Below are positions 3,524 to 20,367 of a DNA stretch of 64,000 bases, in pieces (the stretch's first letter is position 1; each line of letters starts with the position of its first letter). Below the pieces are notes generated by a model. The model was given only the letters and a program-made list of their open reading frames with translations. It was not told the DNA's origin and did no database searches. The stretch is taken from positions 1-64,000 of the forward strand of contig JAUIMI010000003.1 of NCBI GenBank assembly GCA_030433255.1, given 5' to 3'. This stretch comes from a bacterium. GTDB taxonomy: Bacteria > Patescibacteriota > Minisyncoccia > Phycocordibacterales > UBA1006. The translations under genes and the position numbers were made by a program.

Positions 3524-3527
3524 GATT

Positions 3528-4778: not shown

Positions 4779-4780
4779 TT

Positions 4781-6406
4781 ATGAATATCAAAGAGATTAC
4801 TATAAAAAATTTCCGTTCAGTGAAAGAAAAAGAGGGCCTATCACCCAACACCTTTAATATTTTGGTTGGGCAAAATAATCATGGGAAAACAAACTTTTTT
4901 GACGCTTTGAATTGGTTTTTTAATGGATTTGCAAGAGGTGAGGATAAAGAAAAACTAATCTTTTCAGAAGCAAATTCTGAAGCGGAGGATATTTTGGTAG
5001 AGGTAGTTTTTAGTGGACTTCAAGAGGCTATTGAAAACATGTCTAATCAAGGACATAAAAAGAAGTTGGGGGAAATTTTTGGAAGTGTAGATGAGATAAC
5101 AATAAGAAGAACAACGAATTATAAAGATGGAAAACAAAGACAGCTTCTGAATCCTAATGCTGGCGAGTGGGAAGATCCGATAGGGCGAGATACAGCGTGG
5201 AAAGACTTACTGCCTCATCTTGAATATATTCATACAAAGGTAACTTTGGATGATATTGGAGGGTATAAAAGTAAAAGTCCTATTTCAGAAATGTTGTCAG
5301 GGGTTTTAACCTCAATTATTGAAACTGATACGAAATATGTTGAATTAAAAGACAAATTTAAAGAATTATTTGGAAATGACACATCAGAAGTAAGAACAAA
5401 ATTAAATGAAATTAGTGGAAAAGTTGAAGTCTATCTCAAAAAACAATTTCCAGACGATACATCTGTGAAATTCAATGTTGATATTCCAGAATTTACAGAT
5501 TTACTAAAAAAATTCTCTACTGAGGTAAATGATGGTGTCCCTACATTAGTAGAAGAAAAAGGAGATGGAATGCAAAGAGCTGTAATGCTCTCAATAATTC
5601 AAGCTTATGCAGATTTTAGAAAGGAGAATGATATTGCAAAAAAATTTATTTTTTTAATTGATGAAGCAGAATTGCATTTGCACCCGTCGGCACAAAGAGC
5701 CTTGAAAAAAGCATTGCTCGATATATCAGAGAATGGAGATCAGGTTTTTGTAAATACTCACTCATCAGTACTGGTAGCAGATGAGGATCAAAGACAATCA
5801 GTTTTCAAGGTAGAAAAAATAGATAAACAAACCCAAATTGTAATTGCTGATGAGGTAATGAAAATGAATATTATTTATGACCTTCTCGGAGGAAGCCCAT
5901 CAGATTTACTTTTACCATCTAACTTTCTCATTGTTGAAGGACAAGCGGAATTTCATTTTTTAGATATTATAATCAGGAGATTTTATAAAGATCAGTTTGG
6001 AAAAATTAAAATTCTTTTTGCGAGAGGTGATATTGTAGAGCAAGAGAAAAGATATATCAGAGTTGCGGAAACCTATATTCCTTTGAACAATCCAATTTAC
6101 AAAGAAAAAGTTATTTTTATTTTTGATAAACCAAACACATCTATCCAAGACAAATACGATGAATTTAAAAAGGCTCATCCATATTTAATAGACAACGAAC
6201 ATCTTCATCAACTACCAACCGAAACACTAGAAGGTTATTATCCAGATGGTTGGAAAAAGACGAAAGCAGAAATGGAAAACCAAAATTTATCAAAAGTTCC
6301 ATATGCAGAAACAGTAGCACGAGAAATTACTCAAGAAGAATTCGAGCAAAATATGACTGTACTAAAAACAGCTCTTGGGAAAGCTATTGAGAAAGGGTTT
6401 AAGTAA
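4781..6406 (+). CDS. OLD-family-like ATPase with TOPRIM-like C-terminus
   Basis: A 541-aa AAA/SMC-like ATPase. The Walker A region is GQNNHGKTN (about residue 30). A signature-like segment, GDGMQRAVMLS, and a Walker B region, FLIDEAELHLHPSAQ, follow, with an NTHSS histidine switch. The C-terminal part has FLIVEGQAEFHFL, like the glutamate start of the OLD TOPRIM nuclease domain, and IFIFDKPNT where other members have a DxD; the second Asp is absent here. It sits between hsdS and hsdR in the same operon, suggesting an added defence activity or regulation of restriction. Nuclease activity is uncertain. Confidence 0.8.
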   Translation: MNIKEITIKNFRSVKEKEGLSPNTFNILVGQNNHGKTNFFDALNWFFNGFARGEDKEKLIFSEANSEAEDILVEVVFSGLQEAIENMSNQGHKKKLGEIFGSVDEITIRRTTNYKDGKQRQLLNPNAGEWEDPIGRDTAWKDLLPHLEYIHTKVTLDDIGGYKSKSPISEMLSGVLTSIIETDTKYVELKDKFKELFGNDTSEVRTKLNEISGKVEVYLKKQFPDDTSVKFNVDIPEFTDLLKKFSTEVNDGVPTLVEEKGDGMQRAVMLSIIQAYADFRKENDIAKKFIFLIDEAELHLHPSAQRALKKALLDISENGDQVFVNTHSSVLVADEDQRQSVFKVEKIDKQTQIVIADEVMKMNIIYDLLGGSPSDLLLPSNFLIVEGQAEFHFLDIIIRRFYKDQFGKIKILFARGDIVEQEKRYIRVAETYIPLNNPIYKEKVIFIFDKPNTSIQDKYDEFKKAHPYLIDNEHLHQLPTETLEGYYPDGWKKTKAEMENQNLSKVPYAETVAREITQEEFEQNMTVLKTALGKAIEKGFK

Positions 6407-6413
6407 AACTATT

Positions 6414-9400
6414 ATGAAAATCAACGAAAACACAATCGAACAATCATTTATACAACAGCTTGTTGATCAGCACGGTTATGAGTATTTTTATGGTCCTGAT
6501 ATTGCGCCATATTCTGATAATCCACAACGCGAGAATTTTGAATCAGTTATTTTAGAACAGGTTTTGAAATCTGCAATTGACCGTCTAAATCCTAATGTTT
6601 CTGAATCTGCAAAGACTGAGGCATTCCAAAAAGTCATCAATCTAGGGACTAATGACCTCATGGAAAATAACGAACGATTTCATAATTACCTGACCAATGG
6701 AATTACGGTGACCGAAACGATTGATGGAGCCGAACGTGGTATTGATGTGCAGTTGATTGATGTGCAAAATCCAGAGAACAATACCTTTTGGGTAGTGAAT
6801 CAATTGGTGGTACGAGAAAATAATAATGAGAAACGCTATGATATGGTGATTTATATCAACGGACTGCCACTGGTATTTATCGAGCTGAAAAACGCAGCTG
6901 ATGAAAAGGCTACCTTACACAAGGCGTACACTCAAATTCAGAATTACAAAAAAGCGACACCAAGTATTTTTTACTACAACGCGCTGTGTGTTATTTCCGA
7001 TGGAATTGATGCACGAACATCTAGCGTATCTGCACCATATTCACGTTATCTGGCATGGAAATCACCAAATAAAGAATCAGTAGTACAGACGGAATTACAG
7101 GTGCTGGGTGAATATATGCTCAAGCCTTCTGTTCTGCTAAACCTAATCCGCTACTGTACCGTTTTTGAATCTGAAGAAATAAAAAACGAAGCAGGAGTAA
7201 AATCAATTGTAAAGATCAAAAAAGTTGCTGCCTATCATCAATATTATGCGGTAGAAAAAGCCGTCACCGAGACTGTGCGTGCAACGCATGCTGACGCGGG
7301 TGATCGAAAGGTTGGTGTCGTATGGCACACCCAAGGATCAGGAAAATCATTGTCGATGGTGTTTTATGCAGGACAAGTCATCACACACCCTGAGATGAAA
7401 AATCCAACCTTGGTTATTTTGACTGATCGGAATGATTTGGATGATCAGTTATTTGGAACCTTTGGTAATTGTCAGCAATTACTGCGTCAAAAGCCACAGC
7501 AGGCAGAGAGCCGAGACCATCTGAAAGAACTACTAAATGTTTCAGGTGGTGGAGTTATCTTTACGACAATTCAAAAGTTCGCTCCTGCTGAAGGTAATAT
7601 ATTTGATACCTTGTCTGAACGATCAAATATTGTTGTCGTGGCTGACGAGGCACACCGCAGTCAGTATGGATTCAAGGGACGTGTTGTTGAAACTGATGAC
7701 GGTTCAGAGATTCGTTATGGAAATGCGAAATATATCCGTGACGCTATTCCTAATGCCAGCTACATAGGATTCACTGGAACACCTATTGAAAAGGAAGATA
7801 AGTCTACCTTGGGAGTATTTGGTGACTATATTGATATCTATGACATTAAACAGGCGGTTGATGATGGTGCAACCGTACCTATTAGTTACGAATCACGATT
7901 GGTGAAAATCAAAATGAACGAAGAAGTTGCAACTATGATTGATAGTGACATTGATGCAATTGATGGCGCGACACCAGAGCAAATTGAAAAAGCTAAGAAG
8001 AAAAATGCGAGTTTGGAAAAGGTAGTTGGTCATGCTGATCGTGTTGCTGATGTGGCGCAGGATATGGTGCATCATTTTGAAGCTCGCCAAGAAGTATTTG
8101 AAGGTAAAGCTATGTTCGTTGCTATGTCACGGCAGATTTGTGTTGATATGTACAATGCGATTGTTTCTTTGCGGCCAGACTGGCACCACGATGATTTAGA
8201 TAAAGGGGCTATCAAGATCATTATGACCAGTTCATCAGATGATCCTGTTAGTTTCCAACCGCACCATACTACAAAGCAACAGCGAAAAGACCTCGCTGTT
8301 CGCATGAAAGATCCACATGACCCGCTAAAAATTGTGATTGTCCGCGACATGTGGCTGACAGGTTTTGATGCGCCGAGTATGCACACCATGTATATTGATA
8401 AGAAAATGCAGGGTGCCAATTTGATGCAGGCAATTGCTCGTGTGAATCGCGTATATAAAGACAAACCAGGAGGACTGATTGTTGACTATATTGGTATTGG
8501 GCAAGATTTGCGTGCAGCTATGGCGGTGTATCTAGAGAGTGGTGGTGAAGGAGAATCGATTGTTGATATTGCAGAATCTATCGCAGGAATGAAAGAAAAA
8601 TTCGAAGTTATCGAACAGATGTTCCATGGTTTTGATTATAAAGAATACTTTACAGCAGATGTAGGACGAAAGCTTCAAGTGTTGCTTGCGGCACAAAACT
8701 TTATCTTAGAAGATGACGGGTTGCGAGATAGGTTTTTAAAAGAGATTAGCTTACTATCAAAACTCTTTGCGATGTCGATTCCATCTGACGAAGTAAATGC
8801 TATTAAAGACTATGTGGCATTTTTCCAAGCAGTACAATCACGTATCAATAAATTTGAAGGCTCAGGAGTGCTTTCTGATCGACAGGTAGATACAGCAGTA
8901 AAACAAATTGTTGATGAGGCTCTGGCGAGTGATGGGGTGGTGGATATTTTTCAAGCAGCAGGTATTAAAACCCCATCGGTGAGCATTCTTTCTGATGAAT
9001 TCTTATTAGAGGTTAAAAATATGCAACAGAAGAATGTTGCTTTTGAGTTATTGAAAAAGCTTCTTTCTGATGAGGTTCGCCTACGTAAAACAAAGAATAT
9101 TTCACAGGGAAAGAAATTTTCAGAAATGTTAGAAAACATTATCAAGCGATATCACAATAACCAGATTGATTCGGCTCAGGTTTTGGAAGAGTTATCAGGT
9201 ATGGCTCGTGAAATGCGCCTTGAAGACAACAAAGCGGAAGAACTTGGACTAACATCCGAAGAATATGCTTTCTACACCGTCCTGGCTGATAACGAATCAA
9301 CGAGTATGCTTGATGATCAACAGATGAAAGAGCTGATTCACATGGTTACAGAAACGGTTCGTAAGAATGCAACAATTGATTGGGAAAAAATGGAAGCAAA

Positions 9401-9530
9401 ACGAGCAACTTTGCGACTTGCTGTTAAAAAAATACTGATGAAATATGGCTATCCACCTGATTTAGCACGAATCGAGGCTGATAAGGTATTAGCTCAAAGT
9501 GAATTGTTAGCCCATGAGTTAAGAAAATAA
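6414..9530 (+). CDS. hsdR: Type I restriction endonuclease subunit HsdR
   Basis: A 1038-aa motor and nuclease subunit. An N-terminal PD-(D/E)xK nuclease region contains PLVFIELKNA. The superfamily-2 helicase core has WHTQGSGKSLSM as Walker A, VVADEAHRSQYG as the DEAH box, FTGTP as motif III, and ARVNRVY as motif VI. A long C-terminal helical region binds the HsdM/HsdS core in this family. The ATG at 6414 (MKINENT) is chosen because the longer ORF overlaps the preceding gene. It is the last gene of the operon, and a terminator follows. Confidence 0.95.
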   Translation: MKINENTIEQSFIQQLVDQHGYEYFYGPDIAPYSDNPQRENFESVILEQVLKSAIDRLNPNVSESAKTEAFQKVINLGTNDLMENNERFHNYLTNGITVTETIDGAERGIDVQLIDVQNPENNTFWVVNQLVVRENNNEKRYDMVIYINGLPLVFIELKNAADEKATLHKAYTQIQNYKKATPSIFYYNALCVISDGIDARTSSVSAPYSRYLAWKSPNKESVVQTELQVLGEYMLKPSVLLNLIRYCTVFESEEIKNEAGVKSIVKIKKVAAYHQYYAVEKAVTETVRATHADAGDRKVGVVWHTQGSGKSLSMVFYAGQVITHPEMKNPTLVILTDRNDLDDQLFGTFGNCQQLLRQKPQQAESRDHLKELLNVSGGGVIFTTIQKFAPAEGNIFDTLSERSNIVVVADEAHRSQYGFKGRVVETDDGSEIRYGNAKYIRDAIPNASYIGFTGTPIEKEDKSTLGVFGDYIDIYDIKQAVDDGATVPISYESRLVKIKMNEEVATMIDSDIDAIDGATPEQIEKAKKKNASLEKVVGHADRVADVAQDMVHHFEARQEVFEGKAMFVAMSRQICVDMYNAIVSLRPDWHHDDLDKGAIKIIMTSSSDDPVSFQPHHTTKQQRKDLAVRMKDPHDPLKIVIVRDMWLTGFDAPSMHTMYIDKKMQGANLMQAIARVNRVYKDKPGGLIVDYIGIGQDLRAAMAVYLESGGEGESIVDIAESIAGMKEKFEVIEQMFHGFDYKEYFTADVGRKLQVLLAAQNFILEDDGLRDRFLKEISLLSKLFAMSIPSDEVNAIKDYVAFFQAVQSRINKFEGSGVLSDRQVDTAVKQIVDEALASDGVVDIFQAAGIKTPSVSILSDEFLLEVKNMQQKNVAFELLKKLLSDEVRLRKTKNISQGKKFSEMLENIIKRYHNNQIDSAQVLEELSGMAREMRLEDNKAEELGLTSEEYAFYTVLADNESTSMLDDQQMKELIHMVTETVRKNATIDWEKMEAKRATLRLAVKKILMKYGYPPDLARIEADKVLAQSELLAHELRK

Positions 9531-9563: not shown

Positions 9564-9591
9564 AATAGCACCCATATCTATGGGTGTTATT
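9564..9591. terminator. Bidirectional terminator between convergent operons
   Basis: A stem of AATAGCACCCA with TGGGTGTTATT lies between hsdR and the opposing 494-aa gene. Confidence 0.65.
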
Positions 9592-11071
9592 TATTCTTAT
9601 CAAACTCTTCTTTATATTTTTCAATAAAGTCTTCAGGTTCTACTTCCTTTTTATAATCAAAACCAAATGCTTGTGTTTCTATTTCAATAACATGCCTCCA
9701 GTTATCATTGTTATGAATGTACTCAAAGAGGATTTCAAAAAGCATTAGCAAATTCATATTCATCATCAAAATCTGCATCTGAAACTCATCACGATAATGT
9801 ACATATTTCTCAGAAAGGTCGATATCAAATACTTTTGAGAACTCCTGAGATAGTTCAACAAAAGCATTCATGGTGGCATAGCTCTTTACAGGATACGCAC
9901 ACTTCTTAATAAAGAGAAAAGTACGTACCACAGGTACAAGATATGGTATTTGTTCTTTCATATTATCAATACATGGAATAGTAAATGTTGAAGTATACAA
10001 ACTTTTGGCAGTGATAATTGAGATGTTTCCCTTGATGCTATGGTTCAATAATTCCTTCTTCATCTCACCAGATGCAATCAATTCATCAAGATATGTTTTC
10101 GTTTTATTAAACGCTTCATACCAGATATCAAACAACTCTTTATGAACTCGCTTCGTCACCCCTTCATAAGTATCACATTGATTGCTCACATAGATGGGTG
10201 CATACGTTGATACGAATAATCCATCATCAATCCATGTTCCAAGCAAGGGTTTAATCACCAGCTCAAGAGAAGTTCCTTTGTTATCTGCATACGCTTGAAG
10301 CTCTTTCAGAAGCATATTGATATGCTGAGGATCATCAGTATCAACAGTAATAGAGAGATAGTCCGCACATCGATACAGGATTTGTCTGACAGGAATACTC
10401 GCAAATCCATGATGAATGAGGATTCCGTCTTTCTCAGTACCATTTCTTTTTCTGCGAGACTTCTCGCTGTACATCGCATTCCAGAGTAATGATACAAGCT
10501 TCTTCTTGGTATTTCCATCAGAAGTATTATTACCGGAAAGAAGTTCATATAACATCACTTCCTGCGAGATGTACTTTGTATCAATTCGTATATGAGGATC
10601 AAGTATTTCAAAATCATCTTGGATATCAGCATCAAGACTATAAAAGGTCATGGTATGAACAAGGTGTTCATATTCAAGATAACTATGCTCAAGAATATAA
10701 TTAATGACTTCTTGATCAGGGATATGTTCTTTGGCTTGGTCTCGTTCGATAAATTCTTCAAGAGAGGTGTAGTTTCTCATGTAATCAACCATACGGTGAG
10801 ACCGCAGAAGTCCATTATCTGACTCAGCATAATACATCTGTATTTCCATCTTCATGGTAGTTTCAAGATCCATCAGAGCAATATACTTATTGAATTGACG
10901 TATCTCATCATTACCACGTGGAGTCCAGAGACTTGCAATACTTTTTATCTCAGCATCTGATAGTAAAGCTTTTCCCGTCTTTTCTTTCTGTACCTTGTTG
11001 TGTACCAAGGCAGTCACTCGCTCAAGAGGAGTAAGTTTTGATCGACGTAATATATTCGTTAAACTTTTCAT
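9587..11071 (-). CDS. Uncharacterised 494-aa protein in phage-like operon
   Basis: I do not recognise this family. It is a soluble-looking, mixed-charge, largely helical protein with no signal peptide or membrane segment. It ends in an acidic/lysine tail (EEFDKNK). It is the last of five tightly packed minus-strand genes that include a terminase-small-subunit-like protein and two DNA methyltransferases, so a phage or mobile-element role is likely. No portal or large-terminase motif is visible. Confidence 0.6.
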   Translation of the reverse strand: MKSLTNILRRSKLTPLERVTALVHNKVQKEKTGKALLSDAEIKSIASLWTPRGNDEIRQFNKYIALMDLETTMKMEIQMYYAESDNGLLRSHRMVDYMRNYTSLEEFIERDQAKEHIPDQEVINYILEHSYLEYEHLVHTMTFYSLDADIQDDFEILDPHIRIDTKYISQEVMLYELLSGNNTSDGNTKKKLVSLLWNAMYSEKSRRKRNGTEKDGILIHHGFASIPVRQILYRCADYLSITVDTDDPQHINMLLKELQAYADNKGTSLELVIKPLLGTWIDDGLFVSTYAPIYVSNQCDTYEGVTKRVHKELFDIWYEAFNKTKTYLDELIASGEMKKELLNHSIKGNISIITAKSLYTSTFTIPCIDNMKEQIPYLVPVVRTFLFIKKCAYPVKSYATMNAFVELSQEFSKVFDIDLSEKYVHYRDEFQMQILMMNMNLLMLFEILFEYIHNNDNWRHVIEIETQAFGFDYKKEVEPEDFIEKYKEEFDKNK

Positions 11072-11072
11072 A

Positions 11073-11282
11073 CTATCGTTTATGCACTAAGGTGTTTTCG
11101 AGTAAATCAAGACGTTCTTTCAGTTCAGTATTAGCAATATTCTTTGATAGTGTTCCTGCAATTTTTGCAATCATTCCAGCTTTCTTCAGAGATATCTCTT
11201 TATTCATGAGTTGACGTAAGGTGTCAGAGAGGATGGTATTCAATTCGTCGATATCAATATTTTTCATATTAGTTATGTTCAA
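11073..11282 (-). CDS. Small uncharacterised helical protein
   Basis: A 69-aa predicted helical protein between the terminase-like gene (14-bp overlap) and the 494-aa gene (1-bp gap). Close packing supports a real translated gene. An internal Met at residue 6 is an alternative start. Function unknown; a partner of the 494-aa protein is possible but unproven. Confidence 0.5.
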   Translation of the reverse strand: MNITNMKNIDIDELNTILSDTLRQLMNKEISLKKAGMIAKIAGTLSKNIANTELKERLDLLENTLVHKR

Positions 11283-11640
11283 TTAATTCGTACCATGCTC
11301 TCACTTCCTGAGCTCGACCATGCTTAGTAATATTTTTGTACAGCGAAAAGACTACGTTCGGTGTCAGCTTACGAGCCCAGCTATTCATCTGTTTTAAGCT
11401 CGGGTCATCCGCAATACGTTTATTCCAATCCGTCAGAGTTCCAACATCAATGTTATATTCTTGTGCAAACTGAGCTTGATTTTTAATCTTCAACAAGTCA
11501 AAGAGTATCTCTTCATCAATACCAAACTTCTCAAGATGTGCTCGTGGTCTACCTTTTAAAAATGAAGGAAGAGATTTCCAAAGAGCATAGGTTTGATATT
11601 CTTGTTGTTTGTATGGGTCTTTAGAAAAGTCTTCCTTCAT
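11269..11640 (-). CDS. Terminase small subunit-like HTH protein
   Basis: A 123-aa protein with a helix-turn-helix segment (NQAQFAQEYNIDVGTLTDWN, about residues 55-74) typical of phage terminase small subunits of the phBC6A51 type. These recognise phage DNA for packaging. No large terminase, portal or capsid gene lies in this window, so it may belong to a remnant or a satellite-like element, or act as a DNA-binding regulator. Family call is by motif style, moderate confidence. Confidence 0.5.
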   Translation of the reverse strand: MKEDFSKDPYKQQEYQTYALWKSLPSFLKGRPRAHLEKFGIDEEILFDLLKIKNQAQFAQEYNIDVGTLTDWNKRIADDPSLKQMNSWARKLTPNVVFSLYKNITKHGRAQEVRAWYELIEHN

Positions 11641-11644
11641 AGTC

Positions 11645-12394
11645 TTAGAGCTTTATCGCTTTCTTTCCAGTGAGCTTTTCAAGTCGCTTGATAATAATCT
11701 TCACATATTCAACATCAAGCTCTATACCAATACACGTTCGACCAAGGTGGTGTGATGCTATGCAGGTAGAACCACTACCGAGAAATGGATCATAGATAAC
11801 ATCACCAACGCGTGTATTGTCTGGGATAATTTTTCGTAAGAGTCCAATAGGTTTCTGAGTTGGGTGGAGTTTTGATTTCTGTGGTCGTGGGTACATGATC
11901 ACATTTTTTGATTTTGATCGCTGTAGCTTATGCTTCCCAAACCATCCATAGGCAATCAACTCATATTGCGAAAGATAATCCTTGCGACTCATAACAGGTT
12001 GATTCTTCATCCAAATCAACATCTGGCTGTAATAGAATCCAGCATGTTTCATTCCTGTGCGTAACGCCGAGAACATCAAATCAGAATTGAAGATATAGCA
12101 TGCATTATATTCCTCGAGAAATGGGATTACAGCTCCGAGATATTTTTGCGTAAACACTTCGTATTCTTCTTCAGTCTGGAGGTGGTCATTTGCAATCACC
12201 TTATTCTCATCAGCACCAATCTTTGCAAAATCCTTTTTGTTCTCCACATAGGCAACGCCATAGGGTGGATCAGTGAGAATAACCTTGATTTTATTGGCAC
12301 CAATCACGTTTGCTACAAATTCTTTGTCCAACGAATCACCACAGCCAACAATATGCTTTCCGATCTGGAAAATATCTCCGTTACTTACTTTCAT
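11645..12394 (-). CDS. Site-specific DNA methyltransferase (N6-adenine/N4-cytosine)
   Basis: A 249-aa beta-class amino-methyltransferase. The catalytic motif IV (LTDPPYGVAY) precedes motif I (YDPFLGSGSTCIA), with HPTQKP before it, as in the N6_N4_Mtase family. The ATG at 12394 (MKVSNGD) is preferred; it overlaps the end of the upstream ParB-methyltransferase by 14 bp, suggesting coupled translation. No matching restriction enzyme is adjacent. It may protect mobile-element DNA. Confidence 0.87.
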   Translation of the reverse strand: MKVSNGDIFQIGKHIVGCGDSLDKEFVANVIGANKIKVILTDPPYGVAYVENKKDFAKIGADENKVIANDHLQTEEEYEVFTQKYLGAVIPFLEEYNACYIFNSDLMFSALRTGMKHAGFYYSQMLIWMKNQPVMSRKDYLSQYELIAYGWFGKHKLQRSKSKNVIMYPRPQKSKLHPTQKPIGLLRKIIPDNTRVGDVIYDPFLGSGSTCIASHHLGRTCIGIELDVEYVKIIIKRLEKLTGKKAIKL

Positions 12395-13676
12395 AGATCC
12401 GTTGTGCCTTAAGTCCAGTAAATGCTTCCCATCGTTTAATAATGACCGTTGCGAAGATAGGGTCTTGTTCGACACCTCGCCATATACGATTCAGTGTTTC
12501 GCAAGCGATGAGATCACTACCACTGCCAGCAAAACCAGAGAAAATAATATGCCCAGGAGCTGAACATCGCTTGAATGGTTTTTCATTCAAAGTGACAGGT
12601 TTCTGTGTTGGGTGAAGATATGAATTCACGTCATCTCGTTTCTCAATCCAGATGTCGATCATATCAATTAATTCATCGTGAACTTGATTTCCTGTGGTAA
12701 CTTCTTGATTCAAGATTTCATTCACATTATTCATATTGGTATTCAAGTAGGGCTTTCCACGAACGCCATAGGTACATGGCTCGTATACCTTGTTAAACGC
12801 GATCTTATTGGTCGGGTTCTGATTATTTTTTACCCACATACACACACGCTTATTCGTAATACCATGCTGTGCGTACAAGGTCTGCATCACCCAAATGTAT
12901 GAAGAATCAGACCAGTAAAAGAAGTGACTATTGTCTTTTGCAATAGTCTTGGTTACTTCCATGCTCGCATTCAAAAATGAAAGATAGTCAGTGTCTTTCT
13001 TTGAATCATCTTTTTTGGAGAATGAACCTTGGTATGACGAATTACCACTGATTCCTTTTGCATAGTCGAGCCCGATGTTGTACGGCACATCACACCAAAC
13101 GAGATCTGCTTGATCACCATCCATCATTTTTTGTACGAGTTCTAGGTTAGTTGAATCTCCAATAAGTAATCGGTGCTGACCCAACTGCCACACTTCGCCA
13201 GTTTCTACCATTGGCTCCGTTGTTTCTTTGATTGCTTTGTCTACGTCAAAATCGTCTTCATCAAGTTCAACATCATCAAAAATGTTTTGAAGCTCTTCAT
13301 CGCCAAAACCAACGTCAAGAAGCATATTCATATCAAAGTCTTTCAATAGCTCTTCATCCCAAGACCCAGTGTTGTGATTCAAACGAAGGTTTAATTCTTT
13401 TTCTTCATCAAGAGTAAGTTCTCGAGAAGGAATCATACATTCAACTTCAGTATGTCCGAGGTCAGCATAAATATGAATCCGTTGTTCACCACCGATGATA
13501 ATATTTTCTCGTGATCCAGTATTGAGAATAATAGGGGCAACACGACCAAATTCTTTTATCGAGTCTCCTAGATCTCGTTTTTCTTTCTCGCTTATTTTTC
13601 GTGGATTGTATCCATTTGCCATGAGATCAGATACCAAGCGAGTAGTATATGACCATGTGAGGGCTTCTTTTTTCAT
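12381..13676 (-). CDS. ParB-like domain/DNA methyltransferase fusion
   Basis: A 431-aa protein. The N-terminal ParB/sulfiredoxin-like domain includes NPRKIS and IIIGGEQRIHIYADLG (about residues 20-110). The C-terminal beta-class methyltransferase has motif IV near residue 195 and motif I-like FAGSGSDLIACE near residue 400, preceded by HPTQKP. Such fusions are common in phages and conjugative elements. The catalytic tetrapeptide reads DVPY rather than DPPY, so activity or specificity may differ. It is the first gene of the minus-strand phage-like operon. Confidence 0.85.
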   Translation of the reverse strand: MKKEALTWSYTTRLVSDLMANGYNPRKISEKEKRDLGDSIKEFGRVAPIILNTGSRENIIIGGEQRIHIYADLGHTEVECMIPSRELTLDEEKELNLRLNHNTGSWDEELLKDFDMNMLLDVGFGDEELQNIFDDVELDEDDFDVDKAIKETTEPMVETGEVWQLGQHRLLIGDSTNLELVQKMMDGDQADLVWCDVPYNIGLDYAKGISGNSSYQGSFSKKDDSKKDTDYLSFLNASMEVTKTIAKDNSHFFYWSDSSYIWVMQTLYAQHGITNKRVCMWVKNNQNPTNKIAFNKVYEPCTYGVRGKPYLNTNMNNVNEILNQEVTTGNQVHDELIDMIDIWIEKRDDVNSYLHPTQKPVTLNEKPFKRCSAPGHIIFSGFAGSGSDLIACETLNRIWRGVEQDPIFATVIIKRWEAFTGLKAQRIYESK

Positions 13677-13762
13677 AGAAATAAAATCTATTTAGGCACA
13701 TGCCTCATTGCATGTGTTATTAAAATTTTGGCATGTATACAAAACTTAAAATAGACGCGCAT

Positions 13763-13838
13763 ATCAGGTAGGTATATCAATAAAGCCTTATTTAATAAGG
13801 CTTTTAAGTATAGAAAAAGTAACTGATTCCTACCTGAT
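13763..13838. repeat. 10-bp inverted repeat flanking a terminator
   Basis: ATCAGGTAGG (13763-13772) is exactly inverted as CCTACCTGAT (13829-13838). Between them is an intrinsic terminator. The pair lies at the junction between the phage-like operon and the AT-rich cassette. It could be an element-end scar, an attachment-site arm or a long RNA hairpin. Confidence 0.5.
13782..13805. terminator. Intrinsic terminator
   Basis: AAAGCCTTA pairs with TAAGGCTTT and is followed by T residues. It most likely ends the minus-strand 352-aa gene. Its stem sequence recurs in the terminator at 17492. Confidence 0.65.
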
Positions 13839-13847
13839 TCGTACGGT

Positions 13848-14888
13848 CTATAAATTGTTATAAAAATAGATAAATTTATCAGTTGCACGAAGGATTTCCT
13901 GTCCTGTTTTTGGGTGTGTTGTCTTGATATTATTATTTCCAAGGAATTTGTTAAACACTCCATCTTTCATAAGGTTGTTACGATACCCTAGACCAACTTG
14001 CTTGTCTTTAGGTACGAGCTTTTCAAACTCAGCAATAGTTATTGATGTAGTATTTGCTGGCATAAATCGAATGATATTTTTAAACATACTGATGTATTTT
14101 GGTTCTTTTACCCCTCGATTTTTATATGTCATCACACCCTGTTGGTAATGATAAATATCGTCTCCATCAACCCAGAAAATTTTATCCTTATTCTCTGAAC
14201 TATATTCTTTGATCTCAGGATTATTAAAAATAATAGAATTATGTACCTTGTCGACGTGAGCAACAAGTGAGCTACGAGTATATGAAGATTCTGATTCAGA
14301 GTTATTTAAATCAGCAAGGGTACCCATGATTGTTATCAACGCACCAACTACTGATTGACTATCTTTTTTATTGAAAGCTTTCAGAAGTGAGTAATATTTC
14401 TTTCGATCTTCAAATGCATGTGCATCTTTTGGACTAGGATCATGTGAAGAATAAATAACGGTGAAGGGTTTTATTTCTTTTCTGTGTCCAAGACTATCAA
14501 GTCTTCTGAGAATATCCATAAACTCAGCTTGAGGTCCATCAAACTTTTTTGATCCAAAAGTTATATAATTTCCATTAAAAAAATTATCGAGTGTTTGAAA
14601 ACGATCTAAGAGAATGTGGTCATCCTCAAGTTTTAGTTTCTTAACAAGTTTTTGTAACTTAGATGTATCTTTTTTTATTTTCTCAAAAATCTCAACATAC
14701 AATTGTTCATATTTAGTAATTTCATTTTGACGATCTTTGAGTTCTTTATGTAAATATGTCACCAATGGAACTCCTTCTTTTGAAAGAAAATTTGCGTAGT
14801 CATAAAAAGCACTGATAGTAGCACTATCAGTTTCTTTATTCATCACTGAATCAAACAGAATTTTTTCTTTTTTTAGAAGTTGGCTCAT
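13848..14888 (-). CDS. Uncharacterised 346-aa protein
   Basis: Not recognised. It is a soluble, lysine-rich, AT-rich protein. The N-terminal half is helical and probably partly coiled-coil (about residues 60-110). No signal peptide is visible. The start at 14888 (MSQLLKK) is preferred: a TATACT box ends 6 nt upstream on the minus strand, as at other genes here. It lies alone between the phage-like operon and serS, so it could belong to either block. Confidence 0.55.
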   Translation of the reverse strand: MSQLLKKEKILFDSVMNKETDSATISAFYDYANFLSKEGVPLVTYLHKELKDRQNEITKYEQLYVEIFEKIKKDTSKLQKLVKKLKLEDDHILLDRFQTLDNFFNGNYITFGSKKFDGPQAEFMDILRRLDSLGHRKEIKPFTVIYSSHDPSPKDAHAFEDRKKYYSLLKAFNKKDSQSVVGALITIMGTLADLNNSESESSYTRSSLVAHVDKVHNSIIFNNPEIKEYSSENKDKIFWVDGDDIYHYQQGVMTYKNRGVKEPKYISMFKNIIRFMPANTTSITIAEFEKLVPKDKQVGLGYRNNLMKDGVFNKFLGNNNIKTTHPKTGQEILRATDKFIYFYNNL

Positions 14889-14932
14889 ATATTTAGTATA
14901 TATCACTTATTGAAAAATGTAATTTCAATATT

Positions 14933-14975: not shown

Positions 14976-16241
14976 TTAATCAATTAAGCTAAATCCAGTA
15001 TACTTTTGTAATTCTTTTGGAATAGAAATAGTACCATCTTTATTTTGGAAATTTTCCATGATTGCCAGTATGACACGGGTTGTTGCAATTGCTGTTCCAT
15101 TTAGAGTGTGGACAAATTTTCGTTCACCCTGGTCCTCGTATTTTATATTCAACCTTCGGGATTGAAAATCTGTACAGTTACTTGTACTTGTTATCTCACC
15201 ATATCCACCCTCATCGATTAAGAATGGCATCCATGCCTCCAGGTCATATTTTTTATAGGCAGGAGCACCTAGATCGCCAGCACACATGTTCATAACTCTG
15301 AAAGGAATTTCTAAACTTTTATAGAATTCAATTTCCATTCGAAGAAGTGATTCATGGATATTCTCACTTTGTTCAATAGTAGAAATCACATATAATTCAA
15401 CTTTTTTAAATTGATGAACTCTGTATAAGCCTAAGGATTTCTTTCCTGAACTTCCAGCCTCTGTTCTATAACAATTTGTAATAGCAGCAAGTTTTATGGG
15501 TAATTTTTCCTTTTGAAAACAAGTATCTGTGTAATAACCCCCTAAGGTTATTTCACTTGTTCCAATCAGGCTTAAGTCTGAGTTATCAATTGAATATATT
15601 TGCGTTTCAGGACCTCTGGGGTTAAAACCACTTGATTCAATGATTTCATTTTTCGCTAACTCTGGAGTTGTCATTACCTTAAAGCCGTTTTTTTCTGCCA
15701 TATCTAAGGCCATATCAACCAAAGCTCTTTCGAGTCGTACTAGCTTACCCTTTATAAAAGGAAATTTTTTTCCTGATATTTTTGTGCCTGTATCGAAATC
15801 TAATAAGTCTAAATCTATTCCTAACTCAACATGATTTTTTAATAAAAAATTCTTGTGAGTAGGTTTTCCATAATATTCTAATGGAATATTTTCCTCGTCT
15901 GTTTTACCTTCAGGTACACTTTCTGCAGTTAGATTCGGTATTTTTTTCATTTCCGAAAGAAAAAAATCATTTTCAATCCTTAATCTTTCTTCTAAAAGAG
16001 TAATTTCCTCTTTTATCGATTTCATTTTTTCTAAAAGCGTTTCTTTTGTACCTTTATCGGTATTTACGAATTTTTTTGAAATCTCGTTCCTTTGACGTCT
16101 ATACTTATCAAGATCAGACTTTGTCTTTTTGAATTTAGTATAGCCTTCTAATACTAAATCAACATCCCCATGGGAATTCCTTCTTAGAATATTTTTCCTT
16201 ACAATTTCTGGAAATTCTTCTATAAATTTGATATCTATCAT
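14976..16241 (-). CDS. serS: Seryl-tRNA synthetase
   Basis: A 421-aa class II synthetase of normal length that charges tRNA-Ser with serine. An N-terminal coiled-coil arm (about 25-105) grips the long variable arm of tRNA. The catalytic core shows motif 2 (CYRTEAGSSGKKSLGLYRVH) and motif 3 (LNGTAIATTRVILAIMEN). It lies in a cassette with an AlaRS-like protein, archaeal-type MetK and a cyclodipeptide synthase that uses aminoacyl-tRNA. Whether it is the only SerRS of the organism or a dedicated second copy cannot be told from this window. Confidence 0.95.
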   Translation of the reverse strand: MIDIKFIEEFPEIVRKNILRRNSHGDVDLVLEGYTKFKKTKSDLDKYRRQRNEISKKFVNTDKGTKETLLEKMKSIKEEITLLEERLRIENDFFLSEMKKIPNLTAESVPEGKTDEENIPLEYYGKPTHKNFLLKNHVELGIDLDLLDFDTGTKISGKKFPFIKGKLVRLERALVDMALDMAEKNGFKVMTTPELAKNEIIESSGFNPRGPETQIYSIDNSDLSLIGTSEITLGGYYTDTCFQKEKLPIKLAAITNCYRTEAGSSGKKSLGLYRVHQFKKVELYVISTIEQSENIHESLLRMEIEFYKSLEIPFRVMNMCAGDLGAPAYKKYDLEAWMPFLIDEGGYGEITSTSNCTDFQSRRLNIKYEDQGERKFVHTLNGTAIATTRVILAIMENFQNKDGTISIPKELQKYTGFSLID

Positions 16242-16358
16242 AATTATTTATTTTTATTGTTATTTGATTTGATGTTAACATTTTTCTTAAAAAAATCTAT
16301 ATATAATTGATGTAATTCATGATGATGATATATTTATAAAAACTTTAAAATTAAAATT

Positions 16359-17510
16359 ATGGATACTATTATTAATTTCCTCATAAGTAGGAATTGGATA
16401 TATAATGAATGTTCACAGTGTAGAAAGATTTTTTTTACTAAAAAACCTTTAGATAATTGCTCTTGGAGAGAATGTAGTTCTGACGCTTTTAAATTTAGAA
16501 AAAAACCTAAAACTAACAAAAATAAGTCGCTAGATGACATTATAAATATAATTAAAAAGAATTTTTATTCTTATCATTTTAAAAACGAGGATCCTTTAAA
16601 TATTGAGTCTAAGGTAGGAGATACCGACTTAATAGGGGCCGCAGTTCAGGTAATTAATCCTATACTTTTTGAATCCAGTGAGATAAGCCCTAAGAATTCT
16701 TTGATTTTTCAGCCATCGATAAGAGCTCAACATTTAAAAAAAGCGGATGATTTTTTTGAAATCGAAGGATTAAGTACATCATTTGTTAATGTCGCTACAG
16801 TCTCTACGGTTCTAGATATTCAAAAACATTTAGAAATCATAGATAGATGGCTAACTACTTTTTCATATTGCGGTCTATATATGGGGGATTTTAGTCTCGT
16901 TTTGAGAGAAAAGAAAAATAATAATTGGGGGACTGGAGAGTTCCATTCTATTGAATTATTTTTTAATTATATTGATCTTGAAATTGGTGATGCTAGTTAT
17001 TTTAAAATCAATACTAATAAAGGACATAACTTTTCTGTTTCAGATATTGGTTTTGGTTTAGAGAGAATATATTGGGCAATAAGAAAAACTGACTCATATA
17101 GCGATATTTTAGAGCCACCCTCAAAATTAGGTTTGAATTCGAAATTGCAAGATATAGTCAGAACTTTAGTTTTAATGAAAATGAATAATGTTTCATTAGG
17201 AAATAAAGGAGCTGGGTTGTATTTAAAAAATCTTATTAAGTATTCATTATTTCAGCTACACAATAATTTATCTTATTGTGACATCAATTATTACTGCAAT
17301 TATTGGGGTAAGTTTCTTGTTTCAAATAAAAGCCCAATAGAGATACTTATTCAAATACAAAATGATATTGATTCTATTTTTGTTAATCTTTCAAGAAAAA
17401 AATATGGATTATCTCCGATCTTAAAAGGTGAGACAATTAATGAATTTTACGACAGGATGATTATAGAAAATAAGCTTTCTGAAAAAGAAATAAAAGCCTT
17501 ATTGAAATAA
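16359..17510 (+). CDS. Truncated archaeal-type alanyl-tRNA synthetase-like protein
   Basis: A 383-aa protein. The N-terminus has CSQCRKIFFTKKPLDNC and a later Cys, matching the zinc-binding start of archaeal AlaRS. The core follows AlaRS order: IFQPSIRAQ (motif 2 region), LSTSFVNVA where AlaRS has a TSFEM-type segment, NWGTGEFHSIEL where AlaRS has GGNAGPxxEV, and DIGFGLERI (motif 3). Editing and C-Ala domains are absent (full AlaRS is near 900 aa). Changes at alanine-binding positions suggest another amino acid or a carrier or tRNA-like acceptor. It is divergent from serS and convergent with metK. Function is inferred. Confidence 0.75.
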   Translation: MDTIINFLISRNWIYNECSQCRKIFFTKKPLDNCSWRECSSDAFKFRKKPKTNKNKSLDDIINIIKKNFYSYHFKNEDPLNIESKVGDTDLIGAAVQVINPILFESSEISPKNSLIFQPSIRAQHLKKADDFFEIEGLSTSFVNVATVSTVLDIQKHLEIIDRWLTTFSYCGLYMGDFSLVLREKKNNNWGTGEFHSIELFFNYIDLEIGDASYFKINTNKGHNFSVSDIGFGLERIYWAIRKTDSYSDILEPPSKLGLNSKLQDIVRTLVLMKMNNVSLGNKGAGLYLKNLIKYSLFQLHNNLSYCDINYYCNYWGKFLVSNKSPIEILIQIQNDIDSIFVNLSRKKYGLSPILKGETINEFYDRMIIENKLSEKEIKALLK

Positions 17511-17520
17511 GGCTTTTTTT
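17492..17520. terminator. Bidirectional terminator between AlaRS-like gene and metK
   Basis: AAAGCCTTAT pairs with ATAAGGCTTT, followed by T residues. It overlaps the end of the AlaRS-like ORF and abuts the metK stop. Confidence 0.75.
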
Positions 17521-17522
17521 AT

Positions 17523-18779
17523 TTAACTACATATTCGTATTTTCCCATCAATTATATCCATAGTTAATTGATTAAGGTTCGCTAGTTGTGATGAAATTAT
17601 CTTTTGGATTTCGGTCTCTTGTTTGGAATCAAGATTGTCTACAAAAATTTCTATTAAAATATTCCATGGATCTGATAAAGGGCGTCCCATTTGGGAGACT
17701 AGGTATACTATCGATTCTATACCCAGTTTATCGTATATTTTTTCAGAAATTTTCACTGAAGCAACAGTATATAATTTGCCCACGTGATAGACTGGGTTTT
17801 TCCCACAAGCTGCCTCAAGAGTTGCTCTTTGGGTAAACGGGATTACACCGTTTATTCGATTTCCGCGACCAACAGCTCCTTCGTCTCCTGATTCTAATGC
17901 ACTTCCAAGCAAGGTTAGATAATAATCATCATTACTTTTATCATCTCTGGTATTAAGAAAAACATCAACGGATCTAAAAAAAGAAAAATGATTGATAACA
18001 TATTCAGAAATAATTTTCTTTAGTTCATCTAGTTTTTGAAAATAAAATTCCGATGATGGTGTGAATTTTGAAATAAAAGGAATGCACAAAGTTAATGAAA
18101 GATTTTTATCTTTTCTATGTGCCATCACCTTAATATCTGTCCCAACATAAGGATGTTTTTCCTTAAACTTACGACTATTAAGAAATTCTTCTGTGTTAAT
18201 CACAGCAGATTCTGTTTGGCTTAAAAAACCATAACCGACTCCTGTAGATGTATCATTCGATCGTAACTTATTCGAGTGGTTTTTTATAAGTTCTTTTTTA
18301 GGGATAGAGAAGAAATTTTTCCTCTCGTTTTTTGATGTACCATCTTCATTCCAGACAACACCTGGTCCTGGCGCATTATGTGTACCATCAATGATGACAA
18401 TATCATTATTGATATCAATTAATGGCATTACTTGTTTTAAGTGGTCAAAAATGACTTTCTTTGAGATTTCAAAAAAAGGAATTTTATTCTCTCCATAATT
18501 TTCTGTAAATCTACCATTGAGATAAATTTTTATCGGCTTCATAACTTTTCCTCCACCAAAGTAAACCTTAGTTGAACCGCCAGCAACGGCAATTTTATCA
18601 ACCATATGTCTTAAAACCACACCAAACTCCTTTAAACAATACTTACTGTAAGCTGCGGATATTTTTTCAGCAATTGCATCTGAAATTGTATCAGGGTGAC
18701 CTAATCCTTTCCTCTCTACTATTTCAAAAGGTCTTTTATCTATTGTTTTTGATCCCTTTGTTTCTATAAATAAATTCAT
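17523..18779 (-). CDS. Archaeal-type S-adenosylmethionine synthetase
   Basis: A 418-aa methionine adenosyltransferase of the archaeal family, not the bacterial MetK family. Diagnostic stretches are IVERKGLGHPDTISDAIAEK, VYFGGGKVMKPI, and GDEGAVGRGNRINGVIPF followed by LEAACGKNPVYHVGKLY. It makes AdoMet from methionine and ATP. With the synthetase-like genes and the cyclodipeptide synthase nearby, it may feed a methyl or aminocarboxypropyl transfer step, but it could also be the general AdoMet source of this cell. Horizontal transfer is likely. Confidence 0.92.
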   Translation of the reverse strand: MNLFIETKGSKTIDKRPFEIVERKGLGHPDTISDAIAEKISAAYSKYCLKEFGVVLRHMVDKIAVAGGSTKVYFGGGKVMKPIKIYLNGRFTENYGENKIPFFEISKKVIFDHLKQVMPLIDINNDIVIIDGTHNAPGPGVVWNEDGTSKNERKNFFSIPKKELIKNHSNKLRSNDTSTGVGYGFLSQTESAVINTEEFLNSRKFKEKHPYVGTDIKVMAHRKDKNLSLTLCIPFISKFTPSSEFYFQKLDELKKIISEYVINHFSFFRSVDVFLNTRDDKSNDDYYLTLLGSALESGDEGAVGRGNRINGVIPFTQRATLEAACGKNPVYHVGKLYTVASVKISEKIYDKLGIESIVYLVSQMGRPLSDPWNILIEIFVDNLDSKQETEIQKIISSQLANLNQLTMDIIDGKIRICS

Positions 18780-18865
18780 AATATTAATTTTTAAATGTTC
18801 ATATTTAGACTAAAACAATAAATAAATATTGCAATACTTTTAGATTTTGTTCATACTTATTTAGT

Positions 18866-19477
18866 ATGAACACTAGACAGATAATCCTCGCAGGAGGAGG
18901 TAATGAACAGCAAAGTTTCAGGGTTGATGAATTCTTCTTTTCACGTATTCCAAAAAATGGAACGATTCTGTATATTCCTGTAGCTCTGCGTGGGCATAAA
19001 CTTTTTGAAAGTTCACAAGAATGGTTTCAGAATCTCTTAAGGCTACACAAAAGAGAAGATATTAAAATTATTCCTGTAAAGCATTTTGATAAAGAAATGT
19101 TTAATCGAGATATAGATGCCATATATATCGGAGGAGGGAATACCTGGAATCTTTTGAAAGAAATTTATGAGTCTGAAGTCTATGATATTCTCATTGAAAA
19201 GATAAAATTTGGAATACTAACCTACGGTGGAAGTGCCGGAGCTATTATTCTTGGAGGGGATATTTCAAAAAACCCAGATCTTCAAGGGAAAGAAATTAAC
19301 TATGATAAAGGATTAAATTTACTCGATGGATATTCAGTTGTTCCTCATGCAAATAGCGTTGATCTATCCGATCCTAATATTCTTTATTCAAAAACAATTG
19401 CACTTCCTGAGGATTCAGGAGTTTTCGTAACAGACAAAGGAATTTCTACTATCTCTGGAGAACCTTATATTTCATAA
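18866..19477 (+). CDS. Peptidase S51 family protein (dipeptidase E-like)
   Basis: A 203-aa protein with the S51 fold: ILAGGG at the N-terminus, IYIGGGNTWNLL in the middle, and YGGSAGAIILG carrying the nucleophilic serine. VVPHANSVD probably contributes the catalytic histidine. Family members cleave N-terminal Asp dipeptides or cyanophycin-like polymers. No signal peptide, so cytoplasmic. It sits between archaeal-type metK and the cyclodipeptide synthase, so dipeptide turnover or self-protection is plausible but unproven. A CATACT box lies 8 nt before the ATG. Confidence 0.88.
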   Translation: MNTRQIILAGGGNEQQSFRVDEFFFSRIPKNGTILYIPVALRGHKLFESSQEWFQNLLRLHKREDIKIIPVKHFDKEMFNRDIDAIYIGGGNTWNLLKEIYESEVYDILIEKIKFGILTYGGSAGAIILGGDISKNPDLQGKEINYDKGLNLLDGYSVVPHANSVDLSDPNILYSKTIALPEDSGVFVTDKGISTISGEPYIS

Positions 19478-19509
19478 TTTTCAAGAATTGGCATTTGTTG
19501 GCATTTCAG

Positions 19510-19633
19510 ACCACCAGAAATAGCGACCGAGAGAGGTATAATTCGTATTACTCAATATATTCAAAAAATACCACTTGAGACCGAGACACATCATGTTTTA
19601 GCTATTACTATCTCGCTTAGGGCTTATGGTGGT
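19510..19633 (+). ncRNA. Possible structured RNA between pepE-like gene and CDPS
   Basis: ACCACC (19510-19515) pairs with GGTGGT (19628-19633), and inside it AGCGA (19522-19526) pairs with TCGCT (19613-19617). A small GGTAT/GTATT hairpin near 19535 uses G-U pairs on the + strand. A terminator follows at 19671. GACCGAGA occurs twice in the element. It may be a 3' UTR structure of the peptidase gene or a separate RNA. No known family recognised. Confidence 0.3.
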
Positions 19634-19670
19634 TGACCTTATAAGTTCTAGACCGTGTCAGCCAGCAAGT

Positions 19671-19700
19671 AAAAATCACCTTATTTATTAAGGTGATTTT
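19671..19700. terminator. Bidirectional terminator
   Basis: AAAATCACCTT pairs with AAGGTGATTTT around a short loop. It separates the peptidase transcript from the convergent CDPS gene. Confidence 0.75.
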
Positions 19701-19710
19701 GAATAGGGAA

Positions 19711-20367
19711 TTAATCTAATGTTGCTGTGATGTAGCCTATATCAGTTGATTCAATTTCTTTATATTCGCCATCAATAATTTCTTTTAATGGAATCATTGT
19801 TGAATGATATAAATATCCAATTTGTTTTAAATTAAAGATTTTAGGAGAAGAAACAATAAATGCTAATTCTTCAAATACAAAGTTAATACCTATCTGTATA
19901 GCCTCATTCTCATCTAATTGAGTTGTATTTTTAATTACCACTTCACGAGTTGTGTTTTCTATAGAATTTTTGAATAATACATTCTCTGAAAATAGTTTCT
20001 TAAGTTTTAACAACTCATTATTATATGAAGAAATTCCTTCAATTTCTTCCCATCTAATTATTTTAATATTTTTAACTTCCAACGCTTCAATAATTCTTTT
20101 GCATCTATTTTCAAGAGAATTAGCTTCTAAACGGGCTTTTCTTATTGCATCTTCCTGTGAGATACCAAAACTCATAAGAGTATGAATAGCTGGTTTATCA
20201 GGAATCATTATAAATATATTGTCTGCTTTTGTGCTAGCCCATTCAATAAGTCTTCCTATATTTACTTCGCTAAAGAAACTATTCTTTAAACTTATACCGA
20301 TAATAATACCCTGAATCTTTCCTTTTTTGATTTCATCTATATTACTCGAAGTTTCTAATAATTTCAT
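19711..20367 (-). CDS. tRNA-dependent cyclodipeptide synthase (CDPS)
   Basis: A 218-aa protein of usual CDPS length. CDPSs take two aminoacyl-tRNAs and make a diketopiperazine on a Rossmann fold derived from class Ic synthetases. The start GIIIGISLKNSFFS holds the catalytic serine (Ser37 of AlbC) and the Asn at position 40. LIEWASTKADNIFIMIPDKP and EDAIRKARLEANSLENR follow family order. NFVFEELAF aligns with the YxxxE motif: the Glu is kept but the Tyr is Phe. FNLKQIGYLYHS matches the C-terminal signature. A TATTAT box ends 6 nt before the ATG. Product unknown. Confidence 0.85.
   Translation of the reverse strand: MKLLETSSNIDEIKKGKIQGIIIGISLKNSFFSEVNIGRLIEWASTKADNIFIMIPDKPAIHTLMSFGISQEDAIRKARLEANSLENRCKRIIEALEVKNIKIIRWEEIEGISSYNNELLKLKKLFSENVLFKNSIENTTREVVIKNTTQLDENEAIQIGINFVFEELAFIVSSPKIFNLKQIGYLYHSTMIPLKEIIDGEYKEIESTDIGYITATLD

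Follow-up and report, generated by a model that had tools for sequence, protein, structure and literature searches.

The stretch of DNA analyzed here, 64,000 nucleotides of contig JAUIMI010000003.1 (hereafter the window), represents contig 2 of an 812-kb patescibacterial genome that is 99.4% complete. Between positions 14976 and 20367 it carries five genes that a preliminary description had assigned to named families: a seryl-tRNA synthetase (SerRS2), an alanyl-tRNA synthetase-like (AlaRS-like) protein, an archaeal-type methionine adenosyltransferase (MetK), an S51 hydrolase, and a cyclodipeptide synthase (CDPS). All five are present as open reading frames (ORFs), and family matches were found for them (Table 1). 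The block is also more AT-rich than its neighbors, as described: its GC content of 30.5%, against 36.3% in the left flank and 34.2% in the right, lies at about the 4th percentile among 5.4-kb stretches of the window. The first four of these genes belong together as an accessory cassette that is conserved in Patescibacteria and spreads among them by horizontal transfer.

Table 1. The five-gene block and other features of the window
Feature	Position	Strand	Basis
SerRS2, second full-length seryl-tRNA synthetase	14976-16241	-	TIGR00414, 451 bits (cut-off 302); Pfam tRNA-binding arm and class II core
Intergenic region, 117 bp, between divergent SerRS2 and AlaRS-like genes	16242-16358	.	Gene order; putative shared promoter region
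AlaRS-like protein, 383 aa, proposed aminoacyl transferase	16359-17510	+	No Pfam match; weak TIGR03683 match, E 1.7e-7
Archaeal-type MetK-like adenosyltransferase	17523-18779	-	PF01941, 371 bits (cut-off 27)
S51 hydrolase, PepE/cyanophycinase-like	18866-19477	+	PF03575, E 6e-22
CDPS, neighbor judged outside the conserved cassette	19711-20367	-	PF16715, E 3e-28
Large serine recombinase, outside the cassette	278-1609	-	ORF and sequence
Type I restriction-modification locus	2003-9530		HsdM-, HsdS-, AAA ATPase-, and HsdR-like ORFs, between recombinase and phage-like methyltransferase genes
Phage-like block	9587-14906		An overlapping pair of ParB/N6-N4 DNA methyltransferase ORFs, plus three ORFs that match no family

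An order-wide search found AlaRS-like and PF01941 genes adjacent and convergent in four genomes belonging to four families, and BLAST comparison of the neighborhoods added the S51 gene, then SerRS2, to the set. In total, we counted 14 independent loci (the window, G074, G139, G185, G191, G421, L067-L071, L072, which is the same as G503, L073, and L077), every one of them in Patescibacteria. The AlaRS-like and S51 genes occur at all 14 and SerRS2 at nine; MetK is present at 13, the exception being L069, whose contig stops short. The neighborhood therefore does recur in related genomes, but as four genes, with the CDPS not among them. Most relatives found with an AlaRS-like profile have patescibacterial titles (Parcubacteria, Nomurabacteria, Yanofskybacteria, Adlerbacteria) and the rest are titled only "bacterium"; the remaining AlaRS-like relatives belong to the window's own order or class. 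No homologues were detected in phages, plasmids, or viral contigs at the sensitivity used. The genes flanking the cassette vary between loci. At most of the 14 loci, the stop codon of the AlaRS-like gene overlaps the start of the S51 gene, suggesting translational coupling. The divergent layout of SerRS2 and the AlaRS-like gene seen in the window is repeated in L067, L068, L069, and L070, and the 117 bp separating the two genes presumably function as a promoter region. The one Rfam match in the region falls below threshold.

Joint transfer of these genes, which the preliminary description had suspected, is borne out by three cassettes in distantly related hosts (L068, L072, and L077). Their cassette proteins are 84-97% identical to one another, whereas the housekeeping enzymes of the same hosts share 37-56% (SerRS) and 41-48% (AlaRS) identity. 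At the DNA level, similarity of 82-90% begins and stops at the cassette edges. Such cassette-only similarity between distant hosts means that the cassette spreads as a unit. In principle, misbinning of a metagenome-assembled genome could mimic transfer in one case, but transfer is the simpler reading because three records of different origin agree. Some copies are decaying, as expected for a dispensable cassette: in G185, the AlaRS-like gene is broken at its N-terminus and interrupted by an internal stop. The corresponding gene of G191 is cut by the end of its contig.

Inverted repeats flank the cassettes of L072 (2358-2390/6907-6939), L073 (6252-6351/10972-11071), and L077 (525-902/5430-5796). 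These repeats are 33 to more than 300 nt long, include the leaders of both outer genes, and enclose the order AlaRS-like, S51, MetK (minus strand), SerRS (minus strand). Circular permutation converts one of the two common gene orders of the cassette into the other, as would be seen had they arisen via a circular form.

The AlaRS-like family is highly divergent. The window protein scores 29.9 bits against TIGR03683, the NCBIfam model for archaeal AlaRS, which has a cut-off of 744.7, and its family has no match in Pfam (including PF01411), PADLOC, or PHROGs. A profile built from twelve aligned members matches archaeal AlaRS structures, with E about 1e-10 for 2ZTG/3WQY of A. fulgidus and E 8e-6 for 2ZZE, and an AlphaFold2 model with a mean predicted local distance difference test (pLDDT) score of 80.6 aligns to residues 3-450 of A. 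fulgidus AlaRS with a Z score of about 26. The protein consists of the catalytic core and a full-length tRNA-recognition domain, lacking the editing and C-Ala domains. Arg122 in motif 2, Trp190, Asp229, and Arg236 in motif 3 are invariant in the alignment. The first arginine of motif 2 and the GxGxER signature of motif 3 are kept, and the second Arg/His of motif 2 and the Glu/Met that follows it are replaced. An invariant Asp211, a change from Asn/Thr, also occupies the position at which the E-I-W-N motif of bacterial AlaRS has its asparagine. In AcmF, a truncated AlaRS-like enzyme from the ascamycin pathway, the diagnostic changes are N219Q and D232E (PMC12945691). Judging from motif spacing, Asp211 and Asp229 probably mark these same two positions. 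A remnant of the AlaRS-like gene at another locus, L065, encodes glutamate at the position equivalent to Asp229.

A housekeeping SerRS, 38% identical to SerRS2, is encoded on contig 1 (G000:C1:4639-5880), and contig 4 carries both a canonical AlaRS and a bacterial-type MetK. The cassette SerRS and MetK are thus extra copies, and the idea that they are the sole ones is rejected, yet related genomes carry them without a CDPS. In a phylogenetic tree, the nine cassette SerRS proteins group in a single clade, and twelve housekeeping SerRS proteins fall outside it (support 100/100), a separation that rejects simple duplication within the lineage as the origin of SerRS2. The protein matches the TIGR00414 family model, has the tRNA-binding arm, and keeps the TXE loop and the serine and ATP residues of motifs 2 and 3. 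With its catalytic residues kept, SerRS2 should therefore make seryl-tRNA.

The MetK of the window is about 50-55% identical to the other cassette copies and scores below the NCBIfam equivalog cut-offs, with a phmmer E value of about 1e-74 to the archaeal enzyme TkMAT. Since its AlphaFold2 model was poor (pLDDT 60), this model was not used. Instead, we mapped residues by HMMER alignment of ten cassette copies, leaving out that of L068, to TkMAT (4L4Q), with residue roles taken from PMC3853416. All ten resemble the archaeal methionine adenosyltransferases TkMAT and SsMAT (4HPV) in belonging to PF01941 and in keeping the catalytic histidine, the ribose aspartates, the adenine-stacking tyrosine, and the phosphate motifs; the TkMAT residues retained are His33 (catalytic), Asp201, Asp283, Tyr271, and Asn161. 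They differ from the archaeal enzymes in the methionine pocket. Both other ligands of the methionine carboxylate are replaced in 10/10 copies (TkMAT His62 by Arg57 and Asn64 by Met59), and the flexible loop is rebuilt, with the loss of Asp144 and Leu145. With the catalytic and ATP residues kept, the cassette enzyme should still be able to attack ATP at C5', and its acceptor may be a nucleophile other than methionine.

At L068 (11878-13020), the C-terminal part of MetK is fused in frame to a piece resembling GMP synthase (GuaA-like), which reflects either misassembly or rearrangement. Three PF01941 proteins encoded outside cassettes by genomes of the window's order, in L060, L061, and L062, have differing versions of the HHN/RHQ carboxylate motif, and there may be other specialized archaeal-type MetKs in Patescibacteria.

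In the S51 hydrolase, the nucleophile Ser123 of the GGSAGA motif and His161 are invariant across 13 sequences, and Glu182, which completes the Ser-His-Glu triad, is nearly so. Its relatives of known structure are aspartyl dipeptidases. The window protein lacks the last ~28 residues present in all its relatives. This missing end faces the CDPS gene, which fits a later junction at that point.

A small-molecule pathway is a reasonable reading of the gene set. In the literature searched, we found no published description of the four genes together, and to that extent the cassette is undescribed. Its scheme follows aminoacyl-nucleoside pathways that are already known. By analogy with them, the cassette might make an aminoacyl-nucleoside small molecule like albomycin or ascamycin, a proposal that we prefer to its rivals but advance tentatively and rate as somewhat short of an even chance. 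The MetK-like enzyme would use ATP to adenosylate methionine or, in view of its altered pocket, some other nucleophile, which would give an adenosine-containing acceptor. Where present, SerRS2 would supply serine by making seryl-adenylate or seryl-tRNA. The AlaRS-like protein would bind this acceptor where AMP once fitted and transfer the aminoacyl group to it, in the manner of AcmF and AbmF, and the S51 hydrolase would cleave the amide, either for release or for detoxification. Since such a product would look much like an aminoacyl-adenylate, SerRS2 may double as a tolerant version of the target, like AbmK/SerRS2 of albomycin producers.

In its most specific form, this proposal would mean that no smaller pathway to a mimic of an aminoacyl-adenylate is known. 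MetK would adenosylate some nucleophile that is not methionine, the AlaRS-like enzyme would take serine (or alanine) from aminoacyl-tRNA to cap the result, S51 would control the product by hydrolysis, SerRS2 would serve as tolerant target, and these host-dependent bacteria with their reduced genomes would pass the whole on horizontally as a weapon or signal. We regard this fuller version as doubtful, though worth stating. As far as is known, secondary metabolism is almost absent from Patescibacteria. If the proposal is true, they would use a small molecule in dealings with their hosts or rivals. The cassette would also contribute two enzyme groups of use for making nucleoside analogues, namely a family of AlaRS-like enzymes not described before and a MetK subfamily with a changed pocket. 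Being small, the four genes could be expressed together, which makes the question directly testable.

Two Streptomyces pathways provide the closest parallels. In albomycin biosynthesis (SB-217452), a second SerRS, AbmK, supplies serine, confers immunity, and works with the synthetase-like protein AbmF, which joins serine to the nucleoside (PMC9032320). The cassette likewise places a divergent SerRS beside a second synthetase-like enzyme: an extra aminoacyl-tRNA synthetase that has diverged from the housekeeping copy, SerRS2, is carried by nine of the 14 cassettes. However, albomycin requires 18 genes, with a thionucleoside acceptor built by AbmH and AbmD, whereas the cassette has four genes, among them S51, and the MetK-like protein is the only candidate acceptor builder. 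In the ascamycin pathway of Streptomyces sp. 80H647, the extra synthetase AcmD supplies the substrate and tolerates the product, and the hydrolase AcmE reverses the AcmF step (PMC12945691). The likeness here lies in AcmF, which is cut down to catalytic and tRNA-recognition domains with changed active-site residues, as is the AlaRS-like protein. The individual parts differ: AcmD is an AlaRS, AcmE a secreted alpha/beta hydrolase, and the acceptor a nucleoside sulfamate, while the cassette has a SerRS and an S51 hydrolase. Unlike AcmF, the cassette protein is of archaeal type with an N-terminal Cys-rich segment. We liken both AbmF and AcmF to it from their published descriptions.

Several observations weigh against an aminoacyl-nucleoside pathway of this kind. 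SerRS2 is absent genome-wide from four cassette genomes (G074, G139, G185, and G421), so with at least four cassettes lacking it, serine specificity is not general. Neither an exporter nor a regulator accompanies the cassette in a conserved manner. The altered MetK pocket could still permit methionine, with Arg57 binding the carboxylate, and because no bacterial MetK was seen in 8/14 cassette genomes, the cassette enzyme could be their source of S-adenosylmethionine (SAM); as a baseline, 63/297 genomes of the order have a bacterial MetK. Finally, several ATP-site residues are kept in the AlaRS-like protein, which would allow tRNA-independent ligation or ordinary charging. The main uncertainty lies in what this protein does: draw on aminoacyl-tRNA, make an adenylate of its own, or act as an ordinary tRNA-charging enzyme.

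The second of these options leads to the strongest competing explanation. In mycothiol assembly, the glycosyltransferase MshA and the PIG-L-type deacetylase MshB prepare an amine, to which MshC ligates an amino acid; MshC resembles CysRS, belongs to class I, and needs no tRNA. The AlaRS-like protein could similarly form its own aminoacyl-adenylate and ligate a small amine without tRNA, leaving SerRS2 as a tolerant target or an unrelated gene. The invariance of Arg122, Asp229, and the motif 3 residue Arg236 speaks for such an enzyme, as do the five cassettes in which SerRS2 is absent or unresolved. A further parallel comes from L065 (1-3984), where a truncated AlaRS-like gene adjoins an IS30-type transposase and precedes genes for S51, a group 1 glycosyltransferase, and a PIG-L deacetylase. 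This locus sets a divergent AlaRS-like/S51 pair, with the AlaRS-like protein in place of MshC, next to the kinds of genes that prepare the mycothiol amine. The window cassette has MetK instead of the glycosyltransferase and deacetylase, and the comparison, which counts for the aminoacyl-nucleoside reading as well, suggests that the acceptor-building gene is exchangeable. However, the replaced motif 2 residues argue against independent adenylate formation, and the full-length tRNA-recognition domain would be needless for a tRNA-independent ligase. We consider an MshC-type ligase unlikely, if a serious contender.

Alternatively, the cassette could protect translation, with SerRS2 and the AlaRS-like protein acting as tolerant synthetases and MetK as a spare SAM source against synthetase-inhibiting antibiotics of neighbors or hosts. 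SerRS2 keeps all its catalytic residues, horizontal spread fits resistance genes, and a mini-AlaRS without editing and C-Ala domains is able to replace AlaRS in vivo (PMC10036535). Yet the AlaRS-like protein is very divergent, matching nothing in Pfam and altered in motif 2 and the pocket. In addition, no tRNA gene was found in the cassettes, and back-up would leave both the fixed S51 partner of the AlaRS-like protein and the altered MetK unexplained. A resistance or back-up function is therefore improbable.

Slightly less probable still is that MetK is an ordinary methionine adenosyltransferase whose SAM would go, with the help of the AlaRS-like and S51 proteins, into a compound that is methylated or derived from SAM. 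Membership in PF01941 and the intact catalytic histidine and ATP residues agree with this, as does the scarcity of bacterial-type MetK, which occurs in 63/297 genomes of the window's order, so that most of its members must import SAM or use another route. Set against it are the changed carboxylate ligands and flexible-loop contacts to methionine and adenine in all ten copies examined, and no methyltransferase, tailoring, or SAM-using gene is conserved with the cassette.

The preliminary description had placed the CDPS at the center of the block, with SerRS, the AlaRS-like protein, and MetK feeding it and tailoring a modified cyclic dipeptide. CDPS enzymes use aminoacyl-tRNA, and in this one genome all five genes lie within 5.4 kb. 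This central role is nonetheless largely refuted, and very improbable, since the CDPS gene is absent genome-wide from all 13 other cassette genomes, none of the other CDPS neighborhoods examined in the order contains a cassette gene, the conserved mobile unit ends at MetK/SerRS without it, the S51 truncation lies on the side facing it, and no tailoring gene accompanies the set. The CDPS is a bystander neighbor of the cassette. Within the order a CDPS occurs in 12/297 genomes, same-genus genomes lack it, and a search of the genome contigs with the CDPS protein alone returned no relatives. CDPS activity is known from the Parcubacterium RAAC4_OD1_1, whose enzyme makes cHP/cHE (PMC5816076), and this speaks for a dipeptide product here. 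That enzyme belongs to the same family and radiation as the window CDPS but is of the XYP type, while the window protein looks like the NYH type. The window CDPS has phenylalanine at the conserved catalytic-region tyrosine of the Y-x-x-x-E motif of its relatives, and its activity may be changed. In another genome (G005, L031 10213-11577), a CDPS domain is joined to a C-terminal domain resembling solute-binding proteins in a single 454-aa ORF.

We also asked whether the cassette belongs to defense islands, as type I restriction-modification, CBASS, or Shedu genes occur in three cassette neighborhoods. The cassette flanks gave 114 PADLOC model matches, compared to 118 in 14 random control loci from related genomes, and the cassette proteins themselves gave none. 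Because random loci are as rich in such matches as the cassette flanks, the neighborhoods do not support a defense role, and we claim no link to defense islands.

The recombinase region that was said to adjoin the block does include a large serine recombinase, but it lies 13 kb away, with the type I restriction-modification locus in between. Recombinase-like ORFs also occur near the cassettes of L058 (13700-15036) and L059 (6437-7795), making a serine recombinase a possible vehicle of cassette transfer. A methyltransferase similar to the phage-like one of the window is found near the L059 cassette as well.

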